Below, piece by piece: positions 3,318 through 21,219 of a stretch of 64,000 nt of DNA. Every line of letters begins with the position of its first letter. The first letter of the stretch is position 1. The notes beneath the pieces were generated by a model, which did not search any database, had not been told where the DNA came from, and was given only the letters and a program-made list of their open reading frames with translations. The DNA is from Ardenticatenaceae bacterium (GTDB taxonomy: Bacteria > Chloroflexota > Anaerolineae > Promineifilales > Promineifilaceae): positions 1-64,000 of the forward strand of contig JACKBR010000026.1 of the NCBI GenBank assembly GCA_020634495.1. The letters are read 5' to 3'. The translations under genes and the position numbers were made by a program.

Positions 3318-3463
3318 AGGTTCTCCTAAACAATTCATTACAGTGAAATCATACGCTAGATTATACGTCACTTTAGGGAAGGTGTTGCAAATGAAGTGCT
3401 GGCCTGTGGGCAAGTAGTCGGGCTGCCGGTTTGTGGTCTGCCCGACTACTTGCCACTCATCAA

Positions 3464-5116: not shown

Positions 5117-5119
5117 GCC

Positions 5120-5692
5120 CTACTCTCCTCCGTCATAGGAAACTGACTGAACAAATTTTTGGAAATTGGGCAGCACATTGGCCAATGTTTCGCTGTTTGA
5201 TTCCAGGGACAACACCATCACCCGATCGTTTTGGGCAAAGTAATAATCGACGCCCTCAATGATGGCGGGTAAGCCAGGAGAGTCCACATCGGCGCGGGCA
5301 AAGCTGACTTTATAGGCATCTTGCCCGCCAAACACAATGGGGGCGGCTTCCAGCACGCGGTAGGTGCTGTCTAGCCTGGTGCGGGCAATGCTGCGATTCC
5401 CGGCCAAAACTTCCATGTCGGTGGCGGCTGGCAGGCTGGTCACGCGGTAAAGCTGATCCAGGGATTGTGGATTGCGCACGACGAATACCAGATCGCCAGC
5501 GCCTTCTTGCACCAGCCAGCCATCGGGAACGGCCGCATGGATGCCATTTAGGCTTACCTGGCGGGTGGCGTTTTGCACGGCCGTTTTTACCCACCAGCCT
5601 AAAGCCAGGCAAACCAGCAGCAAAATGGCCACATACACGGCGGAGCGCCGCTCATGGGCACGTCTATTTTGGGGCACGCTAACGGGAGTCAT
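5120..5692 (-). CDS. Single-pass membrane protein of unknown function
   Basis: 190 aa. One membrane segment at residues 19-35 (VYVAILLLVCLALGWWV) follows a basic N-terminus (RRAHERR), predicting a cytoplasmic N-terminus and an outside domain of about 150 residues. The outside part has alternating hydrophobic strands and no recognisable catalytic residues; the phrase ISxNGIxxxVPDGW-like resembles surface domains that accompany proteases and chaperones, but no family can be named. It is translationally packed between the PrsW-like gene (TAA directly abutting this ATG) and the HtrA-like protease, so it probably works with them, perhaps as a substrate or adaptor. Confidence 0.6.
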   Translation of the reverse strand: MTPVSVPQNRRAHERRSAVYVAILLLVCLALGWWVKTAVQNATRQVSLNGIHAAVPDGWLVQEGAGDLVFVVRNPQSLDQLYRVTSLPAATDMEVLAGNRSIARTRLDSTYRVLEAAPIVFGGQDAYKVSFARADVDSPGLPAIIEGVDYYFAQNDRVMVLSLESNSETLANVLPNFQKFVQSVSYDGGE

Positions 5693-6535
5693 TTAGTCAC
5701 CTCCATGCACGGCTAAATCGTGCTGGATGGAGCGGGAGAGGAACCAGGTGACAATGCCAGCCAGCACAGCAGCCAACAGCAGCCCAACCCAGCTGTTGGC
5801 GGTGCTTAAACTGCCCTGGCTCAAATTGCCGCGTAAAAAGTAGAAGAGGCTGTTGAGGGCAGCGGCGATAACCAAACCCAAAGGCATCCACCAAAGCGGC
5901 CGTTTCTCAAACTTCATCCGTCCCAAAAAGTAGCCCACCACACCGGCAAAGCTGGCCTGGGCCAGGGTAGTGAGCACCATACGAATGGCCCCGGAACCCA
6001 AATCGACACCGCCGGAGCTCACCACAAAATGAATGTTTAGCACGACGGCAAAACCAACGGCAACGGCCGTTGTGTAAATAATGCCATCAATCGCTTCATC
6101 AAAATCGGCGGCGTAGTAAACTGAATAGCGAACGGCCGCATACTTCAAATATTCCTGCACCATGCCCACGATTAAAAAGCCGCCCAGCAGCTGCGCCCAG
6201 GCGGGACTGCTGCTCAGCCAGGCAGGCACATCAAACACACCCTCTACCAGCGGAATGCCCAAAGCGCTGGCCAGCAAGCCACCCAAGATCACCATTTGCA
6301 AAATGAGATGCTTTGGTTCCGGCTCTAGCCGGTCTCGCCGGTAAAAGAAAGCCAGCCAAACAACCGCTGGCACCAGGGCCATCAAAATGCCGGTAATGAC
6401 CAGCGAGGTAGGGGTAAATTGAGGCTGTAACCATGCTTCGAGGCCAAAAATAACGAGCACAAACAAAACGAGCAGCACAATTGAGGCAATGTCTGCCTGC
6501 CACAAACCACTGCGTTGTCGCCAAGGTCCATTCAT
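5693..6535 (-). CDS. PrsW-family intramembrane metalloprotease
   Basis: 280 aa from the ATG at 6535, chosen because GGAGG lies 8 nt upstream; a longer form from 6607 lacks a ribosome site. About eight membrane segments. The PrsW signature elements are present: QEYLKYAAVR (Glu128, Lys131), FDEAIDGIIYTTAVAVGFA (Asp146, Glu147) and a downstream His in NIHF (His169). PrsW cleaves membrane-anchored anti-sigma factors or other single-pass proteins in characterised species. The directly following gene encodes a single-pass protein and the third an exported serine protease, an arrangement consistent with a membrane stress or proteolysis unit. The first Glu of the usual EExxK is Gln here (QEYLK), so full activity is not certain. 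Confidence 0.75.
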   Translation of the reverse strand: MNGPWRQRSGLWQADIASIVLLVLFVLVIFGLEAWLQPQFTPTSLVITGILMALVPAVVWLAFFYRRDRLEPEPKHLILQMVILGGLLASALGIPLVEGVFDVPAWLSSSPAWAQLLGGFLIVGMVQEYLKYAAVRYSVYYAADFDEAIDGIIYTTAVAVGFAVVLNIHFVVSSGGVDLGSGAIRMVLTTLAQASFAGVVGYFLGRMKFEKRPLWWMPLGLVIAAALNSLFYFLRGNLSQGSLSTANSWVGLLLAAVLAGIVTWFLSRSIQHDLAVHGGD

Positions 6536-6821
6536 GAAGCCACCTCCTAAATATTGGGGTTGTCGCCTTAATACATTTTCTATGGAACGGCCGTTGGCGT
6601 CAACCATTGTGCACTATACAGCTTAACCGATCCAAAACCGATCCTGAAAAGTGACAAATGTCAATTGTAGGGCGTCGGCCACATACTTATAATTCGGCTT
6701 GTGTTCGCGCTTTCCATGCAAATGCCAATCTGAGATTTTCCTAATTTCAAATTTGGTTTTTTCACAACCGTGCCGGGAAACGGCCGTTTTAACATCAACC
6801 TTATCACAGGAGAAAAACACA

Positions 6822-8799: not shown

Positions 8800-8836
8800 G
8801 GGGATGGTTCATGGCTATACGGCCGTAACCATCCCC
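8800..8836. terminator. Bidirectional terminator overlapping GNAT gene end
   Basis: 10-bp inverted repeat GGGGATGGTT (8800-8809) / AACCATCCCC (8827-8836), followed on the plus strand by a CCCCCTCTTTTTC tract. The loop contains ACGGCCGT and the stop codon of the minus-strand acetyltransferase, so the last codons of that gene form part of the hairpin. Confidence 0.75.
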
Positions 8837-9384
8837 ACCCCCTCTTTTTCTCGCGTTAAATCAATGACAATCTCTGATTCCGTGCCCTCAATGGTGCGCT
8901 GCATCGCGTACGGCAGTTGATCAAATAGATGCCAAATGGCCGTGTTGTCATTTTGAATGGTGCCAACCACCGCCTCCGCGCCCGTCATTTGAGCCAACTC
9001 CAGCACCATCGGCAGCAGCCGCTGGCCAATGCCCTGTCCCTGGCGGTCATCCCGCACCGACATGGCCACTTCGGCCGTTGTCTCGGACAGCCACACAATG
9101 CGCGCCACCCCCACGGCCGCTTCCCCTTCCCCTGGCAGCGTCGAAAAAGCAATCAACCCCAGCTGCTCCTCAGGAACGGCCGTAGCAATCTTCTCTGCCT
9201 CCGCCCACACCTGCTCTGGCGTCACGTGATCCGTCGGCTGGTGAAACCGCCGGTAGCGGCTCTCCGGCCCCATGTGCTCAAATAAATCAACCAAATGGTG
9301 AGCATCCTTTGAGCGCAGCAAGCGCACCCAAACCTCAATGCCATCTTTGGTTCTGAACCGTTTCCTTAAATGCACAGCTCCCAT
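8815..9384 (-). CDS. GNAT-family N-acetyltransferase
   Basis: 189 aa from the ATG at 9384 (GGAGG 8 nt upstream; a second ATG at 9390 is too close to it). The acetyl-CoA binding motif A is clear: VRDDRQGQGIGQRLL near residues 128-142. The N-terminal part (LVDLFEHMGPESRYRRFHQP) resembles the acetyltransferase domain found fused to or acting with acyl-CoA synthetases (Pat-like), so protein lysine acetylation is possible, but the substrate cannot be read from sequence. A palindrome directly upstream suggests its own repressor or autoregulation. Confidence 0.8.
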   Translation of the reverse strand: MGAVHLRKRFRTKDGIEVWVRLLRSKDAHHLVDLFEHMGPESRYRRFHQPTDHVTPEQVWAEAEKIATAVPEEQLGLIAFSTLPGEGEAAVGVARIVWLSETTAEVAMSVRDDRQGQGIGQRLLPMVLELAQMTGAEAVVGTIQNDNTAIWHLFDQLPYAMQRTIEGTESEIVIDLTREKEGVGMVTAV

Positions 9385-9402
9385 TACCATTACCTCCACA
9401 AA

Positions 9403-9421
9403 TATAACGCACCGCGTTATA
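9403..9421. promoter_or_regulatory. Palindromic operator candidate upstream of GNAT gene
   Basis: 8-bp arms TATAACGC (9403-9410) and GCGTTATA (9414-9421) around ACC, about 18 bases upstream of the acetyltransferase start. Size and position suit a dimeric repressor. The remainder of the 332-nt divergent spacer to 9716 shows one ACGGCCGT and no gene. Confidence 0.45.
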
Positions 9422-9716
9422 AGCAGTAGAATATCACAGAAAATCGCGTAGATCAATAACGCTAATGTAGAAATTAACTCTCGCCATTTAGTCAATTTTG
9501 CCTAACAGCAGCGCTAAATCATCAACAAAACGGCCGTTTCCCCCAACCCTGCAACCTTTGCCAAACCCATGCGTATAAACCAATGTATCGCACAAAGCGA
9601 ACGTTCTTGCCCGCGTGGCATCATAAAACAATCAAACAAGGAACTGTGTCATCTGCAAGCGCAAATTGCGCAAATCTGCGAGTAAACCAATCTTTGCAAG
9701 GAAGGTATAAGCAATA

Positions 9717-12371
9717 ATGAGCCCGAAAAAGCAAACCGATAAATATCAGGAACTCAAAACATCATTAGAAACACTCCCCCACATTAGCCCCGCCCAGGTC
9801 GAGCACTGGATTCATATGCAAAAAGTGATTGACCAAACTCGTGACTATCTCATCCGCGCCGTGCCCCAGGCACAGCAAAGCGTGGATGAAGCCCAGAAAA
9901 TTCTGGCCCAGCGCACCTACACCCTCGTCTTTTTTGGCGGCACGGGCGTAGGCAAAAGCACCCTCATCAATGGCTTGCTGGGGCGCAATTTGCTACCAAC
10001 CGGGGCAGTAACGGCCGTTACCGGCACTATCGTCTACATTGAACAAGCCCAGGAAGGTGAAGCAGAATCCCTCGTCCTCACCTACTGGACCCAAGACGAG
10101 TTTGCCCAGCGCGTACGCCGCCTTTGCCAACTCGGTGAGATCGACGGCTTCGACATCATCAACGACGGCGAGCGCGAACAGGCCCGCGAAGCCATCCAGC
10201 AAATCATGGCCGACGGAGCCGAAAACGCCAAAACCGAACGCGATGAATACCTGGAAATCCTCATCGACTGCATCGACTCCTACGAACACAACAAATCAAT
10301 GTACACCGAAGGCCCACCCGCGCCACGCAGCCTGGCCCTGGACAATGAAGACTCTCTCAAACACCTGCGCGAAGACGGCTTCAAAGGCAGCCAGCAGCGT
10401 CAAATTCGGCTCATCAAATCGGCCACCTTCAAAATTCAACCACGTGCTGGGCAAGAGAATCTGCTCATGAACGGCTACCTGCGCATTGTCGATGTGCCCG
10501 GTTTGGGCGCAGGCATGAAGCTGCACGAAGCCATCACCCTGGAAGAAATGAAGCGCGAAGACGCCATGATCGTCCTCGTCACCGATGCGGGACGCCAGCG
10601 TGTCGATGAACTGAAATCGCTTTCGGCCGTCAACTGGATTAAAGAGAATCGCCTCTTCGGCTTGAGCGGTGGCGATTTGGACGAAGCGGCCAGCAAAATC
10701 TTCCTGGCCGTGAACGGCGGCAACATTCGCCAGGCGTTTGACCGCCTGAACTCTGGTCTACCGGAAGCCGAGCTGGAAGTAAAAGAAGTGACCCGATACA
10801 TTGCGCCCAACTACTGGGAACGGTACCGGGATCGCGGCCACAATCGGCCCTACTTTTTAGTTATGGCCCCGCCCGCGCTGTACGTGCAGGACCCGGACAA
10901 CGCCCCAGAAGAGTTCGCCAGCGAAACCGAGCGCATTCTAAAAGTGTTCCGCGACCAACTGGGTCAGGTTAACGCCAGCGATCCGCTCGATCCGGAAACG
11001 GCCGCTTCCCTACTAAAACTCAGTGAAGTGCCCCTGCTGCGCGAAAAATTGATTACCTTCATTAAAACCGAGCGCGTGCGCAGCCAGCTGCGCGAAGCCG
11101 CCACTCGCATTCGCAACAGCCTCCAAGCGCTGCGCTTCTACTATGAAAAACAGCTCGCGGGGCGCGGCGTGCATCCGCCATTTGCCAACAGTTGGGAACA
11201 GCTGCAAGAGCGCCGCTTTGAAAACGTGATCATTCGCCAGCAAAAAGAGCTGCCGCGGGCCTTCCACAGCGCCCTGCTGGAGCTGAACAACCGCACCAAC
11301 AGCGATTCCCGCTTCCGCAATATCCTGCGCCCCACGCTGAATGGCATCAAAGGCATGGTGCAAGACGCCGTGCAGCGCGAAGTAGAAACGCTGCTAGAAA
11401 ACTACGGCACCGAATATTGGGACGACCGCGATGTGACCTACGACAACCTGATCTGGGGCAGCAGCGGCATCGAAATTCCGATCAAGCGCATTCTGTTCCA
11501 GGTAGAGCTGATCATGCAGGATTCCGTCTCCAAATTTATGCCCGAAGCGGCCGAAATCATCGCCGCTGAGCTGGAGCGCACCCTGGAAGCGCATGAAATC
11601 CACAGCCGCCTGCGCCGCGCCGCCTATGAACAGGAATACAGTTACGCCATTCCCGGCGAAACGGCCGATGGCCTGAACCTCGATGAAGCGTTCAACGTTC
11701 TGGTAGAGCGGGTAGGGCACAACTTCCGCCACGTTTGCCAGCAGGCAACCATGTACGAACTAATGAAGCCGGAACGGTCTGTACACCACCGCCTGGACGA
11801 AGGCGAGCGCGAACTGTCGCTAAACACCAACGAGCGGCTGCTGGACGTGGCTCTAAACGGGGTTGAATCGGTGCGGCGCGAAATGGCCGCCAACATGCCA
11901 GCGGTTAACAACACCCAGGCCGCTGCGCCTGCCGCTGTTGCCGACGAACCAGAAATCAACATCTCCATCCTGGACGAGCCAGCCCAACCCGCCGACGATT
12001 TAGGCATTAGCCTGATTGGCGAATCAGGCGCGGTCACACCGCAGGCCGATCTGGAAATGAGCTATGCCGACAAACTGGATAACGTCGCCGTAAAGGTGAA
12101 CCGCATCTTTGGTGAAATTCTCAACGACCTGTTCAACGACGATGACCTGCTGCCCCGGCTGCGCCGCCTCTTCTGGCTGGAAGCCACCAAGGCCGAGCGG
12201 GACTTCAACACCCATATCGTCAAGCCGATGCTGAAGCAGCACGACCGCAATCTGCAAAAGCCAGAACTGCGCGAAGCGATGGAAATGGACCTGGAAAACG
12301 TGTCCGATCTCGAAGAGCTGATGCGCGTCTGGGACGGGCTGCACAAGTTGGAAACGAGTCTGGCAATATAA
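9717..12371 (+). CDS. Dynamin-like large GTPase
   Basis: 884 aa, starting at the ATG at 9717 with AAGGAAGG upstream. The G domain has the P-loop GGTGVGKST (residues 74-82), a threonine-rich switch I region (TGAVTAVTG), and the G3 motif DVPG (259-262). The G4 position reads FLAVNGGN rather than NKxD, so guanine specificity is not assured. A long helical, charged C-terminal half (about residues 430-884) follows, interrupted by an Ala/Pro linker near 725-760, as in bacterial dynamin-like proteins that self-assemble on membranes. No transmembrane segment. It opens the plus-strand ubiquitin-like cluster; 113 nt containing a palindromic repeat separate it from the next gene. The role is inferred to be membrane remodelling or a GTP-dependent scaffold for the conjugation enzymes. 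Confidence 0.75.
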   Translation: MSPKKQTDKYQELKTSLETLPHISPAQVEHWIHMQKVIDQTRDYLIRAVPQAQQSVDEAQKILAQRTYTLVFFGGTGVGKSTLINGLLGRNLLPTGAVTAVTGTIVYIEQAQEGEAESLVLTYWTQDEFAQRVRRLCQLGEIDGFDIINDGEREQAREAIQQIMADGAENAKTERDEYLEILIDCIDSYEHNKSMYTEGPPAPRSLALDNEDSLKHLREDGFKGSQQRQIRLIKSATFKIQPRAGQENLLMNGYLRIVDVPGLGAGMKLHEAITLEEMKREDAMIVLVTDAGRQRVDELKSLSAVNWIKENRLFGLSGGDLDEAASKIFLAVNGGNIRQAFDRLNSGLPEAELEVKEVTRYIAPNYWERYRDRGHNRPYFLVMAPPALYVQDPDNAPEEFASETERILKVFRDQLGQVNASDPLDPETAASLLKLSEVPLLREKLITFIKTERVRSQLREAATRIRNSLQALRFYYEKQLAGRGVHPPFANSWEQLQERRFENVIIRQQKELPRAFHSALLELNNRTNSDSRFRNILRPTLNGIKGMVQDAVQREVETLLENYGTEYWDDRDVTYDNLIWGSSGIEIPIKRILFQVELIMQDSVSKFMPEAAEIIAAELERTLEAHEIHSRLRRAAYEQEYSYAIPGETADGLNLDEAFNVLVERVGHNFRHVCQQATMYELMKPERSVHHRLDEGERELSLNTNERLLDVALNGVESVRREMAANMPAVNNTQAAAPAAVADEPEINISILDEPAQPADDLGISLIGESGAVTPQADLEMSYADKLDNVAVKVNRIFGEILNDLFNDDDLLPRLRRLFWLEATKAERDFNTHIVKPMLKQHDRNLQKPELREAMEMDLENVSDLEELMRVWDGLHKLETSLAI

Positions 12372-12384
12372 ATTTAATCGAACA

Positions 12385-12472
12385 CCTACCCCCACCCTAA
12401 CCCTCCCCCTGGCAGGGGGAAGGAATTGGCTCCTCTCCCTTTGAGGGAGAGGGCTGGGGTGAGGGTGAAAAG
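12385..12472. repeat. GC-rich palindromic intergenic repeat
   Basis: Imperfect nested inverted repeat made of CCCCACCCTAACCCT and AGGGCTGGGGTGAGGGT arms, with inner CCCCCTGGCAGGGGG and CTCTCCCTTTGAGGGAGAG hairpins. Similar (CCCTCACCCCAGCCCTCTCCC)-type elements are widespread in bacterial spacers. It could fold in the mRNA between the GTPase gene and the next cistron. Confidence 0.7.
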
Positions 12473-12484
12473 TAGGAACGTCTC

Positions 12485-13681
12485 ATGACAGACCTTGCCA
12501 CACAACCTTTGCTACAAAAACTAGATGACGCGCATCTGCCTGTTTTCGCCTTGCGGCTGACCGAGTGGCTTATTGCTGACCTGAATAAAAGTGATGAGAG
12601 CGTGCCCGATTTCACAGAATCGCGGGCCAAGGCGCTGCTGCGGGCTGCCGCTGTGGTGGATGACCCCACCCTGCACGATTTTGCGCGGTTGGTTGAAGGG
12701 GGCGGTACGGCCGTTCGCCTGGCCCTCCACAATTTACTGCAAGAAACTGGCCTCATTGAAGATGAAGAAGTTGGAGCTTTAGCAATTACAGTCTCCAGTC
12801 TCCAATCTCCAGTCTCCAATCCAGTCTCCTGGCTCTCACTGAGCATCGCCGCCCACGCCTATAAAAGCGGTTACCCGCTCTACCAGCTTGACCCCGCCTC
12901 GCCACCAGGCGAGTACAGCCCCGCCGGACAGCTCATCAAACGGGCTGCCACATTTTTGCGGCAGCAAATCCAGCGCAGCGCCACCGAGCGAGACAAGCTG
13001 GGCAAAAAGCTGGCCTACAACCCTGGCGACGGCACGCCGACGCTGGACAGATTGCCCAACAACCAACCAATCGCTCCCGTGCCGCCCCACTTCCGCCCGC
13101 CGATTCCGGTGCGCTATCCAGAAGTGGCCAGGGAAACTCTGCACGTCAACGAAAACGAAAATATGCAAAACCAGCGACCGGCCACCCGCAACGCTCCCAT
13201 CACCATTACCAACGATGACATCATGCCAGCGGGGCGGCAGCCGGTGCGGATGCCAGAAATTCGCATCCAGGCAGACCAGGTGCCGCAGCAACGGCCAACA
13301 CAACCTGCCCAACCGCGTTCCCGACCCAGCAGCAGTGGTGAAAATTTGGGAACGGCCGTTCGCCAACGATTCAGCCGCGACAAAGAGCCCCTGCGCAGCA
13401 CCCGGCTCCGCGTTATCGTGCAGGATGTGCAGGATGGCCCTGGACTGTACGGCATACAGGTGCAGGTGCGCTGCCAGGGCATCAAGGCCCACGTGGCTGG
13501 CACCACCAACCGCGACGGCGTCTTCCTGTGTGAACTGCCCGTGCGCGCCCGTTCTGGCCTCACCTACGATGTAGACATTACCTGGCCCCGCGACCTGGGC
13601 GGCGAGGTGGAACGCAAATCGGTCACGCTGAACGTGGACCGTACTGAATTTAAGCTGCCTTTTTTCCGGCGTTTATCCTAA
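12485..13681 (+). CDS. Unknown protein with C-terminal beta-sandwich, ubiquitin-like cluster
   Basis: 398 aa, start preceded by AGGAAC. The N-terminal 110 residues are helical (LLQKLDDAHLPVFALRLTEW...), then comes a short stretch TVSSLQSPVSNPVSW encoded by an inserted dispersed repeat. A second helical part follows (to about 175), then a Pro/Gln/Arg-rich linker (about 190-295) and a 100-residue all-beta domain (RLRVIVQDVQDGPGLYGIQV ... TNRDGVFLCELPVR) that resembles carboxypeptidase-regulatory or Ig-like folds. No catalytic motif or membrane segment. Its position between the dynamin-like GTPase and E1 suggests an adaptor or substrate of the system. I do not recognise a named family for the N-terminal part. 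Confidence 0.65.
   Translation: MTDLATQPLLQKLDDAHLPVFALRLTEWLIADLNKSDESVPDFTESRAKALLRAAAVVDDPTLHDFARLVEGGGTAVRLALHNLLQETGLIEDEEVGALAITVSSLQSPVSNPVSWLSLSIAAHAYKSGYPLYQLDPASPPGEYSPAGQLIKRAATFLRQQIQRSATERDKLGKKLAYNPGDGTPTLDRLPNNQPIAPVPPHFRPPIPVRYPEVARETLHVNENENMQNQRPATRNAPITITNDDIMPAGRQPVRMPEIRIQADQVPQQRPTQPAQPRSRPSSSGENLGTAVRQRFSRDKEPLRSTRLRVIVQDVQDGPGLYGIQVQVRCQGIKAHVAGTTNRDGVFLCELPVRARSGLTYDVDITWPRDLGGEVERKSVTLNVDRTEFKLPFFRRLS
12788..12832 (+). repeat. CTCCAGTCTCCAAT-type repeat inside a coding region
   Basis: A 45-bp run of TCTCCAGTCTCCAAT-like units lying in frame within the 398-aa gene, where it adds a Ser/Pro/Asn-rich loop. The same unit forms a hairpin array at 18987-19048, between the two RING-like genes. 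Confidence 0.75.
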
Positions 13682-13689
13682 AAAAAGTA

Positions 13690-13770
13690 TGCCAGTCTGC
13701 GAGTTTGCAAGTCTGCGAGTAGCATTCAAACATCACAACTCGCAAACTTGCCACTCGCATACTCGCAAAC
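13690..13770. repeat. CTCGCAAACTTGC-type palindromic array
   Basis: Units GTCTGCGAGTTTGCAA and CTGCGAGT on the left are mirrored by ACTCGCAAACTTGCC and ACTCGCATACTCGCAAAC on the right, giving a long imperfect hairpin in the 106-nt spacer before the E1-like gene. Confidence 0.7.
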
Positions 13771-13787
13771 CAAAAAATTAATAACAC

Positions 13788-14978
13788 ATGACCGAAACAA
13801 CCGAACCCATCATCATTACCGACCCAGACAGCGACCGTTACCACACCTTCGGCTACATCAGCTGGTGGCAGCAGGAGGTGGTGCGCAATGCCACCATTTT
13901 GGTCGTTGGCGCAGGAGCGTTGGGCAATGAAGTGCTTAAAAATCTGGCCCTCATGGGCATTGGCAATCTGCTCATTGCCGATTTCGACACCATCGAAGAC
14001 AGCAATCTGAGCCGCTCTGTGCTGTTCCGCGCTTCGGATCGGGGCCGCCGCAAAGTGGATGCCGCGGCTGAGCGCGTCAAAGAGCTCAACCCGGACGTCA
14101 ACGTGAAGACCTGGCACGGCAACATCAATTATGAGATGGGGCTGGGCGTTTTTCGCCACGTAGACGCCATCGTTGGCTGCCTGGACAACCGGGAAGCGCG
14201 CCTCTCTATCAATCGTTTTAGCTGGCAAATAAATCGGCCGTGGGTTGATGGCGCAATTCAAGAGCTAATGGGTATCGTGCGTGTCTTCTGGCCTGGCCAG
14301 GGGGCCTGTTATGAATGTACCCTCACTGACCTGGACTACCAGATTATTAATTTGCGCTATTCCTGCCCACTGCTGGCCCGGCAAAACATTTTGCAGGGCA
14401 AGGTTCCCACCACGCCAACCAGCGCCTCCATCGTGGCCGCCTTCCAAACACAAGAAGCGTTGAAGCTAATTCACAACATGGAGGTTCAGCCCGGCAAAGG
14501 GTTGATGATCAATGGTCTGACCAACAACATTTACACCACAGAATATCCAGTTAAGGAAGGCTGCATGAGCCATGCGCGGCTGGAGCCAATTGTAGAGCTG
14601 GAGGAGTGTACGGCCGTATCCACCACCCTCTCTGATTTACTAGCCATCGCCAAAGAAAAGCTGGCCGACGATGCCGTCCTGGAATTTGATGGCGAAATTG
14701 TCACCACCATGCACTGCCTGGACTGCGGCGAAGCGTTCCCCATCTTCCGCAAAATGGCCCGCCTGTACGAAAACGAATCCACCTGCCCCAACTGCGGTGG
14801 ACGGCGCGAGATGAACATGACCCACCGCATTGACGGCAGCGAAGATTTCCTGGCGCGCACCCTGGCAGAAACAGACGTGCCGCCATTGGGCATCATTCGT
14901 GCCCGCAGCGCCAGCCAGAAAAAGAGCATTTATCTGGAGCTAACTGGCGACAAAGAAACATTTTTTAACTTTGCCTGA
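13788..14978 (+). CDS. E1-like ubiquitin-activating (ThiF/MoeB-fold) enzyme
   Basis: 396 aa. The adenylation domain has the nucleotide loop VVGAGALGNEVLKNL (GAGALG 41-46), Asp64-Asp67 (ADFDTIEDSNLSR), the Arg76 finger position, and CLDN (131-134), all hallmarks of ThiF/MoeB/E1 enzymes. A CxxC (174-177, CYEC) and the candidate catalytic Cys193 in YSCPLL follow. The crossover helix TQEALKLIHN is conserved. Beyond residue 300 it carries an extra zinc-ribbon with CLDC (310-313) and CPNC (333-336), which I do not associate with ordinary ThiF or MoeB. It should adenylate the C-terminal Gly of the ubiquitin-like protein encoded next and pass it to the E2. No thi or moe genes are nearby, which argues against a cofactor role. 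Confidence 0.88.
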   Translation: MTETTEPIIITDPDSDRYHTFGYISWWQQEVVRNATILVVGAGALGNEVLKNLALMGIGNLLIADFDTIEDSNLSRSVLFRASDRGRRKVDAAAERVKELNPDVNVKTWHGNINYEMGLGVFRHVDAIVGCLDNREARLSINRFSWQINRPWVDGAIQELMGIVRVFWPGQGACYECTLTDLDYQIINLRYSCPLLARQNILQGKVPTTPTSASIVAAFQTQEALKLIHNMEVQPGKGLMINGLTNNIYTTEYPVKEGCMSHARLEPIVELEECTAVSTTLSDLLAIAKEKLADDAVLEFDGEIVTTMHCLDCGEAFPIFRKMARLYENESTCPNCGGRREMNMTHRIDGSEDFLARTLAETDVPPLGIIRARSASQKKSIYLELTGDKETFFNFA

Positions 14979-15115
14979 GGGTTGCAACCCACACTGGCAA
15001 ACTACGTAATAATAAATGATTTACCAAGTTGATTTGACTATAACAAACCACAGTGCACTATCCAGACGTGTGGCTCGATGGCAATTCAACCAATTAGAAT
15101 GGAGGCTATCATAAA

Positions 15116-15382
15116 ATGGCAAGCATAAAAACAATTATCTACGATCCCACCGGCTCAAAGAAGACCCCGGTAGAACTTCCCGACGACGTTCCCATGCGGC
15201 GTTTGATTCCTGCCCTGGTTAGCAAAATGGGACTTCCCACCAGCCAGGGTGCAAATCCCATCACCTACCGGTTGGATCATCAATCCTCCGGCAAGCGGCT
15301 AAGCGACGATGAATCCCTGGCCGATGCTGGTGTGGTTGAAGATGATATTTTGAATCTCTTCCCAGAAGTCACCGCTGGCTAG
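15116..15382 (+). CDS. Ubiquitin-like (beta-grasp, YukD-like) protein
   Basis: 88 aa; GGAGG lies 11 nt before the ATG. The sequence pattern is that of a beta-grasp modifier: strand (IKTIIYDP), hairpin, strand (KTPVELPDD), helix (MRRLIPALVSKMGLP), strand (ITYRLDHQ), then the ubiquitin-like turn SGKRLSDDESLADAGVVEDDILNLFPEV. The closest recalled class is YukD/EsaB-like Ubls, which have a similar KxLxDxxSLxDxGVxDGDxLxL region. The chain ends in TAG, i.e. with a bare Gly and no tail, so it could be activated without processing. The 137-nt gap from E1 and two hairpins after it suggest separately tuned, probably higher, expression. Confidence 0.85.
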   Translation: MASIKTIIYDPTGSKKTPVELPDDVPMRRLIPALVSKMGLPTSQGANPITYRLDHQSSGKRLSDDESLADAGVVEDDILNLFPEVTAG

Positions 15383-15390
15383 GCATTTAC

Positions 15391-15475
15391 CCTCACCCAA
15401 AGTTCTTGGGTGAGGCAACCCTTAATTCCAACCATAACTTGCGTGATTGCTTCGCCTGGCTGCCAACGGCCAGGC
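15391..15475 (+). promoter_or_regulatory. Two intercistronic hairpins between Ubl and E2 genes
   Basis: A 10-bp perfect stem CCTCACCCAA / TTGGGTGAGG (15391-15400, 15406-15415) and a 7-bp stem GCCTGGC / GCCAGGC (15454-15460, 15469-15475) occupy the spacer. Neither is followed by a T-run, so RNA stabilisation or partial termination is more likely than full termination. This would give more Ubl than E2. Confidence 0.5.
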
Positions 15476-15499
15476 TCAATCCCAACCAACTACAAAGCT

Positions 15500-16033
15500 A
15501 TGTCTTTTAATATTCGGGAAACCAGATTGCGCAACGACCACGAGCGAATTCGTGCCCTGGTCAACCGCAGCGAGTTTATTCACATTCTAACCACAGAAGG
15601 CGATCCAGTAGAAAAATATCTCATCCGCTTTACCTGCAAAGGGGTGGAAAAGATTAATTCTGCTGGTAAGCCACTCTTGCGTGAGGCACATGAAGTGAGT
15701 ATTTATCTTCACGCTGAATACCCACTGAAGCAACCTCAACTTAAGTGGCACACCCCTATTTTTCATCCCAACATTCATGTGACGGGGGCGGTGTGCATTG
15801 GGGCCTGGTGGCCAGCCAAAACGCTAGATGAGCTGCTGCTCACGCTGGGTGAAATGGTGCAGTACAAGAATTACGATCCAAAAGACCCGATGAACTCGAA
15901 GGCGGCTGCCTGGGCGCTGCGACACAAGCAGATCTTCCCCATTGACCGGCGCAGTCTGAAAGGACAATCACTGGAAGATTTGATTGTGCTTGGGGAGGAA
16001 GAATCGGATGAACTCGGCATCAACATTCTCTAG
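15500..16033 (+). CDS. E2-like ubiquitin-conjugating (UBC-fold) enzyme
   Basis: 177 aa from the ATG at 15500; an upstream in-frame extension from 15410 runs through the hairpins and is not credible. The UBC fold is unusually canonical: a YPLKQPQLKWHTPIFHPN segment with the HPN motif at 89-91, the active-site region GAVCIGAWWPAKTL with Cys99, and DPKDPMNSKAAAWA matching the eukaryotic DPxxPxNxxAA helix. This Cys should accept the Ubl from the E1 and transfer it to lysine with or without a RING partner. Many bacterial E2 relatives lack the HPN Asn, so this one looks catalytically complete. Its last 26 bases overlap the next gene, implying coupled translation. Confidence 0.9.
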   Translation: MSFNIRETRLRNDHERIRALVNRSEFIHILTTEGDPVEKYLIRFTCKGVEKINSAGKPLLREAHEVSIYLHAEYPLKQPQLKWHTPIFHPNIHVTGAVCIGAWWPAKTLDELLLTLGEMVQYKNYDPKDPMNSKAAAWALRHKQIFPIDRRSLKGQSLEDLIVLGEEESDELGINIL

Positions 16034-17231
16034 CGGCCGTTCTGCGCCACAACCGCAACCTGAACCAGAACCTATGATTGGCCAGCCCGAAATGGAGAGC
16101 CTACGGGAACGGCCGTTCACCAATTTTACCGCCAACACCCACCTGCATGGCCAGCTACCCGCTGCCAATCAGGTTGTCGTCAGCCACCGGCAGCAAGCTA
16201 TTCGCCAGATTCGGGCGCACAGCATTAGCAACTTGCGCTCAGAGCTGGGCGGGGTGCTGCTTGGCCATGCTTACCGCGACGGGGGAAAACTTCTGGTGGA
16301 AGTGATCGCCGCCCTGCCTGCCCGCAACGACGATCATGGCCCAATTCATTTTACCTTTACCGCCGATGCCTGGAGCCAGATTCACCACGAGCGTGCCCAA
16401 AAATTCCCAGATTTGGAGATTGTGGGCTGGTTCCACACCCATCCCGGCCTGGGGGTTTTTTACTCCAGCGATGACGTGGTGGTGCATACGGCCGCATTCA
16501 CTTTACCCTGGCATGTCGGCCTGGTGGTGGATCCGCTGGGCAATGAAGCCAGCTACTTTGGCTGGCAAGATGGCCAGCTGGCCCCCATCGGCGGCTATTT
16601 TGAGCAGCTCGATGAGCAAGAGACGCCCGTTGCTCCCTGGCGTGTGGCCAAAACAGAAGTGTGGGCCACCCGAACCACAGAGCAATTTTACGCCTCTTAT
16701 GAATCTGCTGAAGGCGAAGGTGGGTTCTTCCCGGCAACCTTCAACCAGGAACGGCCGTTTGCCCTTTCCAACACAGCCACATTGGCAATTCTGGGCTTTG
16801 TCTTAGGGTTTTTTTTGCTTTTTGGCTGGGTCGTGGCCCTCAACCGGCAGATTAACAGCCTGGAGAGCGTCATTACCAGCCTGGCAGACGAAACCTCGAT
16901 CAATGCGGTAAGCTGCGGTAACCCACAGCTGCGCATTTTGGCCCCGGTTGCCCAAAGCCAGATTGCTGCTGGGCAGGACGTGCCCATTTTTGGTACGGCC
17001 GTTCACCCAGAAGCCGCCCGTTACCAAATTGAGTACCGGCTGGCTGGGGGAGAAAGCTGGGAATTGGCTGGCGTGCAGCGCCGCCAAACCGCCCTTGGCC
17101 TCCTGGTCAATTGGGACACCAGCGAGCTGTTCCCTGGCCTTTACGACCTGCGTCTGAAAGCGGTAGACCGGCAAAACATTTCGCTGCCCGGCACACCTTC
17201 TTGCCAAATCGCGGTTGAATTGACACCTTAA
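16008..17231 (+). CDS. Membrane-anchored JAB/JAMM isopeptidase
   Basis: 407 aa from the ATG at 16008, where GGGGAGGAAG lies 6 nt upstream inside the E2 coding end. The JAMM motif is complete: Glu79 (RSELGGVLLG), then His143-Thr-His145-Pro, Ser153 and Asp156 (HTHPGLGVFYSSDD). Fold and motif match zinc deubiquitinases of the Rpn11/AMSH type. A single membrane helix spans about residues 257-278 (AILGFVLGFFLLFGWVVAL), followed by a short coiled segment and a beta-sandwich domain (about 305-405) predicted on the other side of the membrane. It probably removes Ubl from membrane-associated targets. The N-terminal 50 residues are Pro/Glu-rich. Confidence 0.9.
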   Translation: MNSASTFSSGRSAPQPQPEPEPMIGQPEMESLRERPFTNFTANTHLHGQLPAANQVVVSHRQQAIRQIRAHSISNLRSELGGVLLGHAYRDGGKLLVEVIAALPARNDDHGPIHFTFTADAWSQIHHERAQKFPDLEIVGWFHTHPGLGVFYSSDDVVVHTAAFTLPWHVGLVVDPLGNEASYFGWQDGQLAPIGGYFEQLDEQETPVAPWRVAKTEVWATRTTEQFYASYESAEGEGGFFPATFNQERPFALSNTATLAILGFVLGFFLLFGWVVALNRQINSLESVITSLADETSINAVSCGNPQLRILAPVAQSQIAAGQDVPIFGTAVHPEAARYQIEYRLAGGESWELAGVQRRQTALGLLVNWDTSELFPGLYDLRLKAVDRQNISLPGTPSCQIAVELTP

Positions 17232-17290
17232 CCTGAATGGTTGCCCATCCACACAAACCCTCCGAGAGGCTTTGTGATCTGGAATTATTT

Positions 17291-18439
17291 ATGACTGACA
17301 CAACAACCCATTACGTGGCCATTATTCAAATTCATTTACCTGAACATGAAACGGCCGTTTCCGCCAATATTCGCCTGACGCCTACAGAGCTGGTGCCGCT
17401 AGACGGCCACCACAAAATGCTGCACGACTGCACCCTGGCCGAATTACAAGATTTTGCGGACCAAACCGAAGCAGAAATTTGGCAAACCTACCGGCAAATC
17501 AAGCTGGCAGATTTGGCCAAAGATGGCACTGTGAAAATGGCAATGGATGTGGTGGATGCCGCTGGCGAGCCGGTAGCGCCCTCGCGGGAATGGCTGGCAA
17601 AAATGGTGGTAGAAACGGCCGTTTCTGCCCAAATTGACGAACTGCCAGACGCTCCACCAGCCGCCGAAGAAGATTCACCGGAAACAGAACCGGCCACCGC
17701 AGAAATGGAGGCAATCCCCACTGAGGAGATTGAACAGGAACCGGCAGAAGCGGAGCCGGAGACCGAACCCGAACCGCCACCCGTCGAGCCTGCTGCTGAA
17801 CCGGCAGATGCGCTGGACAACATTGTTGTTTCAGAGCCAGAACCGGTGCATGAAGAGCGCGAAGCGCCCGAAGAAACGGCGCAAAAGACGGTCATTGCTC
17901 CCAGCCAGGCCAGAGTGCGGCTGGCCGGACGCCATCTGCCGGTGGGTGATCCCACCCCGGCGGCGGTAGACATCACCATAGAAGAACCAGCTTTACGCGC
18001 TGCCCAGGCCCACGCCCTGAGTAGCCTAAACCGGGAGGTGGCCGGGGTGCTCATCGGCCCACGTCCAGAAAAACAGCCAGACGGCCGTTACCGGGTACAC
18101 ATCCTGGACACGATCATCGCCAAGTACACGGTAATGCACGGAGCCAGCGTCACCTACACCCCGGAAAGCTGGCGCTACATGCGCGACAAACTTCACGAGC
18201 GGTATCCTGATGAAACGGCCGTTATCGTCGGCTGGTACCATACCCACCCCGGTTTTGGCATCTTTTTATCCGGGATGGATTTATTTATTCACCAAAACTT
18301 CTTTACCCAGATTTGGCACGTCGCCTTTGTGCTGGATCCCCGTGCCCAAACCAGCGGCTTTTTTAGCTGGGACCGGCAAAAAACTCAGGTCTCCCGGCAT
18401 AATTTTTACTGGCCAGAGTGGGCCGATGGGAGTTGGTAA
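17291..18439 (+). CDS. Second JAB/JAMM isopeptidase
   Basis: 382 aa from the ATG at 17291; an earlier in-frame ATG at 17237 adds an unconserved-looking stretch. Residues 1-110 form a separate alpha/beta domain (MTDTTTHYVAIIQIHLPEHE...), followed by an 80-residue Glu/Pro/Ala linker. The C-terminal JAMM domain has Glu249 (NREVAGVLIG), His317-Thr-His319-Pro, Ser327 and Asp330 (HTHPGFGIFLSGMD). No membrane segment, so this is the soluble partner of the anchored JAMM enzyme encoded just upstream. Two active-looking deconjugases in one cluster suggest different targets, or Ubl chain editing versus substrate release. Confidence 0.88.
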   Translation: MTDTTTHYVAIIQIHLPEHETAVSANIRLTPTELVPLDGHHKMLHDCTLAELQDFADQTEAEIWQTYRQIKLADLAKDGTVKMAMDVVDAAGEPVAPSREWLAKMVVETAVSAQIDELPDAPPAAEEDSPETEPATAEMEAIPTEEIEQEPAEAEPETEPEPPPVEPAAEPADALDNIVVSEPEPVHEEREAPEETAQKTVIAPSQARVRLAGRHLPVGDPTPAAVDITIEEPALRAAQAHALSSLNREVAGVLIGPRPEKQPDGRYRVHILDTIIAKYTVMHGASVTYTPESWRYMRDKLHERYPDETAVIVGWYHTHPGFGIFLSGMDLFIHQNFFTQIWHVAFVLDPRAQTSGFFSWDRQKTQVSRHNFYWPEWADGSW

Positions 18440-18563
18440 CTTTCAGTAATCGGTATACAGTGTTCAGTAACCAGATAGTCCGAAATGAGTGCTGTTTACT
18501 GTTTACTGACAACTGATTACGGTATGTGTATAATGCCCTTAACGGAAGACTGATTACTGAAAA
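18440..18563. repeat. CAGTAATCAGTAAAC-type palindromic array
   Basis: Units TTCAGTAATCGG, GTTCAGTAACCAG, CTGTTTACTGTTTACTG, AACTGATTACGG and CTGATTACTGA form an imperfect mirror array filling the whole spacer between the second JAMM gene and the RING-like gene. The same family recurs at 51655-51740. Confidence 0.7.
18506..18534 (+). promoter_or_regulatory. Sigma70-type promoter for the RING-like gene
   Basis: CTGACA (18506-18511), a 17-nt spacer and TATAAT (18529-18534): five of six and six of six matches. It lies inside the repeat array and 29 nt before the RING-like start, so the E3-like genes can be transcribed apart from the rest. Confidence 0.65.
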
Positions 18564-18986
18564 ATGGACGAACAGGAAATGCCCCCCCTCACCATTACGA
18601 ATAATGACATTCAGGCAGCCAACCAGCTGAGCCTGCACTGTCCCATTTGTGCCAATCCGGTAGAAAAGTTTGTAGAGGATCGGGAATTGCAGCCGGTGAT
18701 TTGCGGCAAATGCGGCACGCTCTATCACAAAACATGTTGGGAGCTGGGCGGGGGCAAATGTGCAGTGTTGGGCTGTGGCCATACCAGGTTCAAACTGTAC
18801 GGCGCACCCACCAGCCCAGTTTTAAGCATCAAATACTCCGATTTGCCACGGCCGTCGGCAAACGGCCGTTCCAGCCAGACCAAACACTTAAAGGAAGAAC
18901 AGCGCCGCCAGGTAGAACAACTGCGACGTCCAAGCCTGCTGCAAAGGCTGTTCAAATGGCTTTTGGACCAAATACGAATTGGTTAA
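18564..18986 (+). CDS. RING-like zinc finger protein, candidate E3 ligase
   Basis: 140 aa. Eight metal ligands are arranged as in cross-braced RING/PHD-type fingers: Cys26-x2-Cys29, Cys47-x2-Cys50-x4-His55-x2-Cys58, Cys66-x4-Cys71. This matches the prokaryotic RING families known from comparative genomics to sit beside E1, E2, Ubl and JAB genes. The remaining 65 residues are basic and helical (KHLKEEQRRQVEQLRRPSL) and end in an amphipathic stretch LLQRLFKWLLDQIRIG that could bind the membrane. The likely role is to bring the charged E2 to a target. It has its own promoter in the upstream repeat. Confidence 0.82.
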   Translation: MDEQEMPPLTITNNDIQAANQLSLHCPICANPVEKFVEDRELQPVICGKCGTLYHKTCWELGGGKCAVLGCGHTRFKLYGAPTSPVLSIKYSDLPRPSANGRSSQTKHLKEEQRRQVEQLRRPSLLQRLFKWLLDQIRIG

Positions 18987-19048
18987 TAAGAGATTGGAGA
19001 CTGGAGATTAGAGATTAAATCTCCAGTCTCCAGTCTCCAATCCCCAAC
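18987..19048. repeat. CTCCAGTCTCCAAT-type hairpin array
   Basis: GAGATTGGAGACTGGAGATT on the left pairs with AATCTCCAGTCTCC and a second AGTCTCCAAT unit on the right, a near-perfect hairpin directly before the second RING-like gene. Sister copy at 12788-12832. Confidence 0.75.
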
Positions 19049-19055
19049 CTCCCCC

Positions 19056-19544
19056 ATGCTCACCTCCATCACCATCACCAAGCAATCCCCATTTTTGGGT
19101 GAAGAGTGTGCCCTGTGCAAAAATCCGTTTGCGCCGGGGGATACGGTCATTGTTTGCCCCGCAGACAGCAGCCGCCACCACACGCACTGCTGGCGCGCCA
19201 ACGGCAACAAATGTGCCGCTTACGGCTGCCGGGGGCACGGCGACATTGAAGAGGAAACTCCTGCGCCACAACCTCAACCGACACCCCCGCCGAACAATCC
19301 AACCACAACCCGGCCCGCAACAACTGCACCGGCAAACGGCCGTTTGCAACAAGCAGCGCGACGGTTTGGCTGTGGGCAAGGCTGTTTGCTCATCGCCGTT
19401 GCCATCGCCATTATTTTTTTCTCAATTGGCTGTTTTGGCCTGTGGGCCATTGCCGACTACATCATGCTGGAAGTGCTGGGATGGCAGTACCGCGTCCCTG
19501 AGGCTGGCGCTTTTTTACCCCACGTTTTGCATCTAGTAATTTAA
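19056..19544 (+). CDS. Membrane-anchored RING-like zinc finger protein
   Basis: 162 aa. The N-terminal finger parallels that of the preceding gene: Cys18-x2-Cys21, Cys34, His41/42-His44-Cys45 and Cys53-x4-Cys58, with the shared end motif W(R/E)xxGxKCAxxGC. One expected Cys (position 37) is Asp, so the second metal site may use an extra His. A Pro/Thr-rich linker (about 65-95) leads to a membrane helix at about 112-137 (CLLIAVAIAIIFFSIGCFGLW) and a short tail. This should hold E3-like activity at the membrane beside the anchored JAMM enzyme. No Shine-Dalgarno is visible; the start is chosen as the first ATG after the repeat. Confidence 0.75.
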   Translation: MLTSITITKQSPFLGEECALCKNPFAPGDTVIVCPADSSRHHTHCWRANGNKCAAYGCRGHGDIEEETPAPQPQPTPPPNNPTTTRPATTAPANGRLQQAARRFGCGQGCLLIAVAIAIIFFSIGCFGLWAIADYIMLEVLGWQYRVPEAGAFLPHVLHLVI

Positions 19545-19637: not shown

Positions 19638-21080
19638 CTACCGGGGGGCTGCTTCGCGGGCGTTTTTGTAGGCGGCCAGGGCACGCTCGCGCGCTTCGTG
19701 GTGGGCTACAATGGGCGCGGGATACTTCTGCCCAATGCGGCTGCCGCATGAACTTTGGACGGATTCTGGCATCTGCCACGGCTCGTGGATGAATTTTTGG
19801 GGGACGTCAGCCAATTCTGGCAGCCATTTGCGGATGTAACGGCCGTCTGGATCAAACTTTTTAGCCTGCGCTGTAGGATTAAAGATGCGAAAGTATGGCG
19901 CGGCATCCGTGCCGGTTCCCGCCGCCCACTGCCAGCCACCGTTGTTGGCGGCCGGATCGCCATCCAGCAAATGCTGCATGAAGAATTTCTCGCCCCAGCG
20001 CCAGTCGATGAGCAAATCTTTAACCAAAAATGAAGCAACAACCATGCGGGCGCGGTTGTGCATCCAGCCCGTTGTGGTGAGCTGGCGCATGGCTGCATCA
20101 ACGAGAGGGTATCCGGTACGGCCGTTGCCCCAGGCCCTAAACTCAGCTTCATCATTGCGCCAGGCAATGGCGTCGTATTCTGGCCGAAAATTGCCCCGCA
20201 AAACATGGGGAAAATGGGCCAAAATGTGGCTGTAAAACTCGCGCCAGATCAATTCGCTAAGCCACGTTTCGGCCCCTTGGCGGGCTGCTTTGCTGCTGGC
20301 ATTTTCCAGACAGGAAACGGCCGTCGCCACCGCCTGCCTCGCTGAGATCATGCCAAAGCGCAAATAAGGCGAAAGCTGGGAGGTGCCCGGCACAGCCACA
20401 AAGTCTCGCGCCTGCGCGTACCGGCCAATCGCTTCCTGGGCAAATTCGCGCAAACGTCGCTGTGCTTCGGCTTCGCCAGGCACAAATGGGACGCTGTCTG
20501 GCAGGGCTAGGCTGGCAGGCAAAGGTTCAGATTGAATGGCTTCGGGGATGAGCAGCTTTTCTGGCGCAGGCAAAATGTCGGTGAGTTTGGGCAACGGCCG
20601 TTTCAGCCAGGCATTTTTCTTGAACGGGGTAAATACAGTGTACGGCTCGCCATCCGGTTTGAGCACCGTGCCGGGCGGGTGAACCACCAGGCCCGCTTCC
20701 AGATGCAGCGGCAATTCTTGGGCAATTTGGCCGTCACGGCGGCGGGCATAGCGGCTAAAATCTTCCTCGGCAAAAATGGCGGATGCGCCTGTTTCTGCTA
20801 GCAGCGCAGACAACACTTTTTGGGGACGGCCGTAGCGTACAATGAGCCGGCTGCCCCGCTGGCGCAAATCGGCATCGAGTTGGCGCAGCCCAGCCCACAA
20901 AAAAGCGGTGCGCTTTTGGCCCACATAGGCCGACTTTTCAAAAAAAGGATCAACAATAAAAAGGGGGATGACCTGCCTGGCGGTGGCCAGCGCAGCAGCC
21001 AGAGCCTGGTTATCTGTCAGACGCAAATCACGACGAATCCACCAAACGGCCGTTTCCTGCAACGATTCTGTAGTAGCCAT
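19638..21080 (-). CDS. phrB: Class I CPD photolyase / cryptochrome family
   Basis: 480 aa, about the length of E. coli PhrB. Flavoprotein that repairs cyclobutane pyrimidine dimers using blue light. The N-terminal antenna domain begins [17 protein letters not shown], and the FAD domain contains [29 protein letters not shown] and [25 protein letters not shown], all diagnostic of the family; WxW-tryptophan positions look intact. The start at 21080 was chosen because it precedes the conserved strand closely; longer forms to 21140 exist. It is monocistronic and convergent with the ubiquitin-like cluster, marking that cluster's right border. Confidence 0.92.
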
Positions 21081-21219
21081 AGACAAGGAGTATACACAAC
21101 TATCCATGTTTTGCACAGTATTTATCCAATATTCGCCCACCCCACCCGGCGGCTCTTTCTTTGGATAAACGGCCGTTTTTCGTTAAACTTCCAGCACATT
21201 CCCAAAAAGGACGGTTCGC

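Follow-up and report, generated by a model that had tools for sequence, protein, structure and literature searches.

What might a full set of eukaryote-like ubiquitin-type genes be doing in a bacterium, and why should it lie next to a dynamin-like GTPase? The question is raised by a window of 64,000 nucleotides from an Ardenticatenaceae bacterium of the Chloroflexota (assembly GCA_020634495.1, contig JACKBR010000026.1), in which positions 9717-19544 carry nine open reading frames (ORFs), all on the plus strand, neighbouring genes being separated by -26 to 137 bases with the starts chosen here. Scans with Pfam, PADLOC and NCBIfam identify a dynamin-type GTPase, a ThiF-type E1, a YukD-type ubiquitin-like modifier (Ubl), an E2, two JAB/JAMM peptidases and two Prok-RING_1 proteins; the second gene, coding for an adaptor-like protein that we call bsw, matches no family above cut-off in any of the three. 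All nine ORFs of an initial annotation of this DNA are present as it claimed, and its complete set of Ubl, E1, E2, RING and deconjugase genes is borne out by the sequence. With confidence that is evenly balanced for the proposal as a whole, we hypothesize that the cluster encodes a complete pathway of Ubl conjugation and deconjugation on the cytoplasmic side of the inner membrane, that it belongs to the core genome of its family, and that the GTPase and bsw are its effector or target, with a docking motif shared among components.

The conjugation enzymes and the modifier

Conservation of motifs was counted over the window plus related loci. The E1-like adenylating enzyme (13788..14978, 396 aa; Pfam ThiF 2.2e-53) has a single ThiF/MoeB-type domain followed by a C-terminal zinc-ribbon-like region. 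Its GAGALG loop (residues 41-46) is kept in 39-40/40 sequences per position and Cys193 in 42/42; the CxxC and zinc-ribbon cysteines are kept in just 33-35 of 42-43 sequences, and are therefore not needed everywhere. The E2 conjugating enzyme (15500..16033, 177 aa; Pfam UQ_con 1.3e-13 for the 207-aa frame from 15410) has HPN at residues 89-91 and Cys99, both present in 49/49 sequences, and the HPN-x7-Cys spacing is found in 47 of these. Cys99 is numbered from the ATG start at 15500; the open frame itself begins at a GTG at 15410. The loop, the HPN and both cysteines are thus as the initial annotation had named them.

The Ubl (15116..15382, 88 aa; Pfam YukD 5.3e-12) ends in VTAG, and its C-terminal glycine, as judged from sequence, is exposed or exposable for conjugation. 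It was rightly described as Gly-terminated; the end is a single Gly and not GG. The residues TAG close the conserved region in 49/49 sequences, and in 45 of them the stop codon follows immediately, the other four extending past TAG by LF, QGRRA, RS or A. Among the best 120 of 2722 relatives in the database, a set that may overlap with the 49 sequences, 100 stop exactly at TAG, 12 carry mutually differing tails of one to five residues, and in 8 the preceding residues differ and the end is AG. Since a conserved end followed by a free tail is the pattern of ubiquitin-like precursors, the tailed Ubls resemble pro-forms, which suggests that they need trimming. Sequencing errors could account for single tailed Ubls, hardly for all of them.

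Both peptidases have the full JAMM motif that had been noted for them. JAMM1 (16008..17231, 407 aa; Pfam Prok-JAB 1.9e-9 and JAB 7.9e-9 for the frame from 16020) keeps the catalytic E, H, H, S and D as well as the HxHx7SxxD arrangement in 46/46 sequences; it has a hydrophobic stretch near residue 260 and a C-terminal Ig-like region (Big_7, E 0.12, below cut-off). In JAMM2 (17291..18439, 382 aa; Pfam JAB 4.1e-10 for the frame from 17288), the catalytic residues are kept in 37-38/38 sequences and the arrangement in 37/38. Its JAMM domain is C-terminal, behind an acidic, Pro-rich linker and an N-terminal region of approximately 100 residues (17291-17600) that recurs in the family and has no Pfam match.

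The two cross-brace zinc fingers proposed earlier likewise stand: the ligands are conserved in 34/34 sequences of RING protein 1 (RING1; 18564..18986, 140 aa, C4HC3; Pfam Prok-RING_1 6.2e-7) and in 26/26 of RING protein 2 (RING2; 19056..19544, 162 aa, C3H2C3-like; Pfam Prok-RING_1 6.9e-8). Bacterial RING versions with membrane helices are noted by Pfam. In hydropathy profiles, a stretch fit for a membrane span was found in RING2 in 26/26 sequences (near residue 111) and in JAMM1 in 43/46, and among the remaining families only in 2/38 JAMM2 sequences; JAMM1 and RING2 are thus probably anchored in the membrane. C4HC3 is the arrangement given for prokaryotic RINGs, and C3H2C3 that for the Caldiarchaeum E3, in the available part of PMC11354881.

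Operons of this general kind are not new to bacteria. They were predicted in 2006 (Iyer 2006), and a review, PMC4197634, places such operons in Actinobacteria, Planctomycetes and Acidobacteria and describes bacterial and archaeal ubiquitylation operons as sporadic, with frequent absence from close relatives. In Caldiarchaeum subterraneum, as in the window, ubiquitin, E1, E2 and RING genes form one operon that adjoins a second E3 and a JAMM gene, and the JAMM removes a nine-residue tail from the CsUb precursor (PMC6043591, accessible part). That system differs in being archaeal and in its GG end, and no dynamin is mentioned in that part of the paper, whereas the Ubl of the window is of YukD type, ends in one Gly and has relatives with short tails. 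The Bil and Bub systems, which have been studied experimentally (PMC13373217, PMC12687455, both in part), likewise have an operon that joins the genes for Ubl, E1 and E2 to one for a specific peptidase, of JAB type or another, and BilC trims BilA, according to the accessible text of PMC11354881 and PMC12687455. However, BilD is there described as an inactive plus an active adenylation domain, with a Cys domain (PMC11354881), whereas the E1 of the window has 396 aa, one ThiF match and a partial BilD match (8.9e-7), and because of this E1 architecture we do not assign the cluster to Bil. BilB is given a CEHH motif in the same text, and the window-type E2 has HPN and Cys99; PADLOC listed no BilB match, the CEHH residues not having been aligned one by one. 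The window further adds RINGs, the GTPase and family-wide occurrence.

Burroughs, Iyer and Aravind are said to have predicted prokaryotic RING/Ubl operons in 2011 (Mol Biosyst 7:2261) and to have suggested that YukD-like Ubls are perhaps conjugated. Like those operons, the window has adjacent Ubl, E1, E2, JAB and Prok-RING_1 genes on one strand; compared with them, as a citing review describes them, it differs in its occurrence in Chloroflexota, its near-universality in a family, and its additional GTPase, bsw, second JAMM and shared motif. Features of type II CBASS were not found: E1 and E2 are separate, and no CD-NTase is among the Pfam and PADLOC matches listed for the nine proteins (for E1, 25 of 33 PADLOC matches).

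Distribution, gene order and alternative functions

The initial annotation had framed the cluster as sporadic and defence-like, a frame that the distribution does not support. In the family of G001, E2 is present in 47/52 genomes, the GTPase in 47/52 and bsw in 46/52, with at least one Prok-RING_1 match in 48/52 (above cut-off in 41); every one of the 52 genomes has E2 or the GTPase, none lacking both. Since genome completeness is not given, some of the missing genes may be gaps. At the order level, E1 was found in 50/56 genomes (E up to 1e-60). The closest E2 relatives (95% identity) come from Anaerolineaceae/Anaerolineae metagenome-assembled genomes and so point to a Chloroflexota source. 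The class at large was sampled evenly with 199 genomes, of which 18 gave E2 matches: ten belong to the window type (70-95% identity), six have 44-49% identity and two are weaker. The GTPase, with no more than four candidates scored in each genome, was found in just these ten, apart from one 30% partial match in G205.

The cluster proteins also diverge together. Their pairwise distances correlate with r of 0.83-0.93 (six pairs tried), and with those of the flanking GNAT and M32 genes with r of 0.80-0.98 (10-13 loci); none of 500 label shuffles reached the observed correlation in any pair. In the 17 loci where the first eight parts are all intact, identity averages 0.91 in Ubl, 0.77 in E1, 0.76 in both GTPase and E2 and 0.74 in M32, compared with 0.49-0.59 in the JAMMs, RINGs and bsw. 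The system is apparently single-copy in family genomes and looks like a core-genome, housekeeping-like trait of the family, the opposite of the sporadic bacterial operons.

Gene order was followed by scanning contigs of GTDB genomes with an E2 alignment, which gave 48 loci. Of these, 46 are titled Chloroflexi, Anaerolineae, Ardenticatenia, Promineifilum or similar, and the other two Armatimonadetes and Zipacnadia. Ubl, E2 and JAMM1 lie in this order on one strand in 45/46 Chloroflexota loci, the 46th contig stopping inside E2; 39 of the 46 have E1-Ubl-E2-JAMM1 and 21 have GTPase-bsw-E1, while 18 hold the first eight genes and 15 the full nine, and no cluster gene matched on the opposite strand in these loci. 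Many contigs are short, and 22 loci have 7 kb of sequence before E2 and 4.5 kb after it; among them the nine-gene order is complete in 12. Conserved order in Chloroflexota, which the initial annotation had offered as a check on its claim, is therefore seen, and because the same order recurs in other genomes the cluster is not due to chance. The most divergent loci, L047 (Armatimonadetes) and L048 (Zipacnadia), have E2, Ubl, E1 and JAMM in a different order together with a trypsin-like gene, and L048 has an additional second E2 and a RING protein. The trypsin-like proteins of both loci end with a DLSDIDI.. tail.

A second type of Ubl system was observed in the same class, at L061-L065 (G199, G106, G134, G044 and G171). 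Its E1 has a long N-terminus, which in L061 contains a GntR-type DNA-binding domain by Pfam, and it includes a multi-helix protein with a RING-like end (Prok-RING_1, 28.4 bits in L061, just under cut-off) and JAMMs; a free Ubl with the TAG end occurs in L061-L063 and L065, and an FHA protein and a VWA protein lie nearby in L061. A Ubl is fused to the N-terminus of E2 in four of the five loci (L061, L062, L064 and L065), where the fusion junction is again TAG, and partly in L067; in L063 the ORF lister picked no E2 frame. The fusion, confirmed by Pfam in L061, is a direct tie between Ubl and E2. G001 itself has another E2-like match, distant at 25% identity (G001:C2:49438-49839, L069), inside a 553-residue open frame.

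Could the cluster nevertheless be an antiphage system of the Bil, Bub or CBASS-linked sort, which attaches its Ubl to proteins of the phage or the host when a cell is infected? According to the accessible text of PMC12687455, the bacterial Ubl cascades investigated to date function primarily in phage defence, Bub operons have immune-type regulators, with protection not demonstrated for them according to the part available of PMC13373217, and dynamin-like proteins occur in PADLOC too (LeoBC/LeoA, 2.3e-9). However, near-universal, apparently single-copy presence in the family and co-divergence with neighbours, together with a very conserved Ubl, argue against phage defence, and E1, and probably E2, are unlike those of Bil as set out above. 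Ubl had no match in 72,556 plasmid records and E2 none in 50,697 phage records (E 1e-5 in both searches), and PHROGs returned no match for the six cluster proteins searched. The cluster is flanked on the left by a GNAT acetyltransferase gene (8815-9495, minus strand) and on the right by a photolyase gene (19638-21140, minus strand); ten flank genes of the window gave two partial-model matches in PADLOC, a trypsin-like protease and RuvB. Further off, at 2130-6607 on the minus strand, lies an ATPase of ArsA type that includes an HSP20-like domain, close to two proteases, one trypsin-like and one of the PrsW family, and the sole match in an Rfam scan is a tRNA. We regard a defence role as improbable.

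We judge it equally improbable that tagging serves mainly proteolysis, with Ubl-marked membrane proteins handed to a protease, which would be the most familiar use of ubiquitin and would suit the presence of two RING proteins. Proteasome-fold subunits were found in 0/52 family genomes, whereas the same search was positive in 10/14 control genomes, and no ATP-dependent protease is among the gene families recurrent in the cluster, although FtsH or Clp could serve. A sulfur-carrier or cofactor pathway of the MoeB/ThiF-MoaD kind is far less probable still, since the ThiF/MoeB-like E1, and the co-occurrence of JAB, E1-like and ThiS/MoaD-like genes in such operons (Iyer 2006, in the text available), stand against a canonical E2 with HPN and Cys99, two RINGs, two JAMMs, a single-Gly end with pro-tails, and the lack of a sulfur-metabolism gene among the flank genes checked. 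Similarly, we give very little credence to the Ubl being an unconjugated, YukD-like structural part of type VII secretion, as its YukD Pfam membership, an NCBIfam EccD match of 0.0017 (far below cut-off) and WXG100 proteins in 21/52 family genomes are outweighed by the 31/52 without a WXG100 match, versus E2 in 47, and by an invariant Gly end and pro-tails in a protein whose relative YukD is reported as unconjugated (Iyer 2006, same part).

The dynamin-like GTPase, bsw and a shared linear motif

The dynamin part of the proposal concerns the first two genes. The GTPase (9717..12371, 884 aa; P-loop GGTGVGKST; Pfam Dynamin_N 1e-11) belongs to the dynamin superfamily as judged by its Dynamin_N domain and its match to cyanobacterial SynDLP (Slr0869), the nearest solved relative, compared with which it co-occurs with a Ubl system; a helical stalk is visible only in a low-confidence model. 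In a profile search SynDLP (7zw6) was best at 2.6e-9, followed by mitofusin 2 at 4e-4, and in a fold search with a model of mean pLDDT 61.7 SynDLP (9em7) came at 1.1e-9, followed by a bacterial dynamin pair at 2e-3 and BDLP at 4e-2. The P-loop residues are kept in 18-19/19 sequences and mean column identity is 81% across 16 family members. It is a protein that probably bends membranes.

For bsw (12485..13681, 398 aa), a structure model (pLDDT 76.5) and an alignment of 20 sequences outline a helical domain at about 18-177, a disordered linker at about 180-287 and a transthyretin/CnaB-like sandwich at 303-394. The earlier label of a beta-sandwich protein thus fits the modelled C-terminal part and misses the helical domain and the linker. 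The sandwich finds 5-hydroxyisourate hydrolase and CnaB domains in a fold search (E 6e-4 to 2e-3), the best match (E 2e-4) being poorly aligned.

RING1, bsw and a CAP-domain protein of some loci have in common a strict pattern, [ILV]x[IV][TS]xx[DE][ILV], and a loose one that allows any residue at position 4, both written after seeing examples. In the window, RING1 carries one copy on each side of its zinc finger, LTITNNDI (strict, 18588..18611) and LSIKYSDL (loose, 18822..18845), and bsw carries IPVRYPEV (loose, 13103..13126) and ITITNDDI (strict, 13199..13222), together with a motif-like stretch, IRIQADQV (13259..13282), that fits only the widest pattern and neither of the two, all on the plus strand. 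The strict motif occurs in 34/34 RING1 proteins (40 matches versus a shuffled mean of 0.2), in 23/26 bsw proteins (26 versus 0.8) and in 12/13 CAP proteins (22 versus 0.2). It was found in none of the E1, E2, Ubl, JAMM1 and RING2 sequences and in one of 38 JAMM2 sequences. Flank ORFs have it at about twice chance (22/294 ORFs, 23 matches versus 10.7 shuffled), and with the loose pattern they are at chance (99 versus 98.3), as against 63 versus 2.6 in RING1 and 55 versus 4.6 in bsw. The motif may resemble SUMO-interacting motifs, and the bsw copies of the window sit in the low-confidence linker of the model, which would fit a docking peptide.

What the motif might bind was approached by elimination. 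Its first copy in RING1 is kept in L042-L044 (genomes G242, G014 and G243), which are without GTPase and bsw; neither of these two is therefore retained as the receptor, which is probably another component, likely Ubl, E1, E2 or a JAMM. TxxD is an FHA-type phosphothreonine pattern, and a meaning of this kind was rejected because widest-pattern matches can also have S, R, K, H, D or N at the Thr position. A wider set of clients defined by the motif was likewise abandoned: in 1.2 Mb of the 3,989,163 bases of G084:C1, 24 strict matches fell in 993 ORFs, none with two, and no further client stood out, three of the 24 being the cluster's RING1, bsw and CAP protein with one match each.

The CAP/SCP-domain gene lies just before E1 in 13 loci (L011, L016-L020, L022, L023, L026, L029, L031, L032 and L045). 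Its product (family match 5.6e-10 in L017) has by eye no signal peptide, and its N-terminus holds up to three copies of the motif. In L042-L044 an M23-peptidase-like protein is encoded downstream of RING1 (4.7e-5 in L043, below the family cut-off).

How firmly is the GTPase tied to the Ubl genes? A whole-genome search of 17 genomes found it in 13/15 Chloroflexota, one copy each, the exceptions being G014 and G015; in the Armatimonadetes genome G016 there was just a weak match of 36%, and in the Zipacnadia genome G017 no match. Where it is separated from E2 it mostly stays beside bsw, six of eight such GTPases adjoining it (L052-L055, L057 and L058); in G013 bsw lies 1.9 kb downstream, and in G012 the contig ends at the GTPase gene (L060), with bsw on another contig. 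Further, bsw is absent from G014, G242 and G243, which are also without the GTPase. These patterns support the link. G223, G226 and G236 have a GTPase match and no bsw match.

Several observations weigh against the proposal, most of them against its dynamin part. The GTPase is apart from E2 in 8/13 genomes with both, either 12-20 kb away on the same contig (G004, G006, G007 and G011) or on a different contig (G005, G008, G012 and G013). The nine-gene order is incomplete in 10/22 loci with enough contig: L028 and L036 are without a recognisable RING2 only; L005, L006, L008, L012 and L043 are without GTPase and bsw at the E2 locus; GTPase, bsw and E1 are missing at that place from L034, L041 and L046; and a recognisable RING2 is missing also from L041 and L043. 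The genomes G014, G242 and G243 keep E2 without GTPase and bsw, as if the pair had been lost, or gained late, within a single divergent subclade, and those genomes of the class that carry the second type of system yielded no GTPase match, so that the dynamin link is not obligatory for a Ubl system. The GTPase itself has no copy of the shared motif, its structure model is weak (mean pLDDT 61.7), and E1 correlates with the flanking CNNM gene with r of only 0.60. More generally, shared gene order and joint occurrence are no proof of an action of Ubl on the GTPase.

A proposed pathway and its meaning

Taken together, the gene set, the pro-form pattern of the Ubl, the probable anchors, co-inheritance and the motif are supported by sequence, and we hypothesize the following course. 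Pro-Ubl, where tailed, would be cut by a JAMM peptidase to the ..TAG end. The single-domain E1 would adenylate the Ubl, hold it on Cys193 and hand it to Cys99 of E2; we infer this direction of transfer, and the enzyme chain as such follows from the conserved residues and from what is known of these families. Soluble RING1 and membrane-anchored RING2 might then have E3 roles, guiding attachment near a membrane whose cytoplasmic face we take, as a presumed topology, to be the site, and the tag could be removed by membrane-tethered JAMM1 and by soluble JAMM2. The dynamin-like GTPase and bsw may be the effector or the main target, Ubl tagging switching a membrane-remodelling step, and the motif in RING1, bsw and the CAP protein of some species might dock on a common receptor, perhaps Ubl itself. 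The dynamin link is much less sure than the enzyme chain, since it rests on co-occurrence, adjacency and a presumed membrane location.

A more specific version of this pathway, in which vertically inherited, housekeeping Ubl tagging on a membrane platform controls a fission-type dynamin and is held together by a new docking motif like SUMO-interacting motifs, is tentative, and we lean somewhat against it. What appears to be new is the dynamin-bearing, family-wide form, Ubl-E2-RING operons as such having been predicted before. In the open full-text literature, where most subscription papers are missing, we found no description of the dynamin-bearing form and, in agreement with the initial annotation, no experimental description of the nine-gene form; a genome paper on sponge Chloroflexi makes no mention of ubiquitin.

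The locus offers concrete sites in Cys193, Cys99, the TAG end, the pro-tails and the motif. If the proposal is true, the link between ubiquitin and membranes that is known from eukaryotes would become testable in a bacterium, and the locus would suggest that ubiquitin-like tagging serves bacteria in ordinary cell biology too, beyond antiviral modules.

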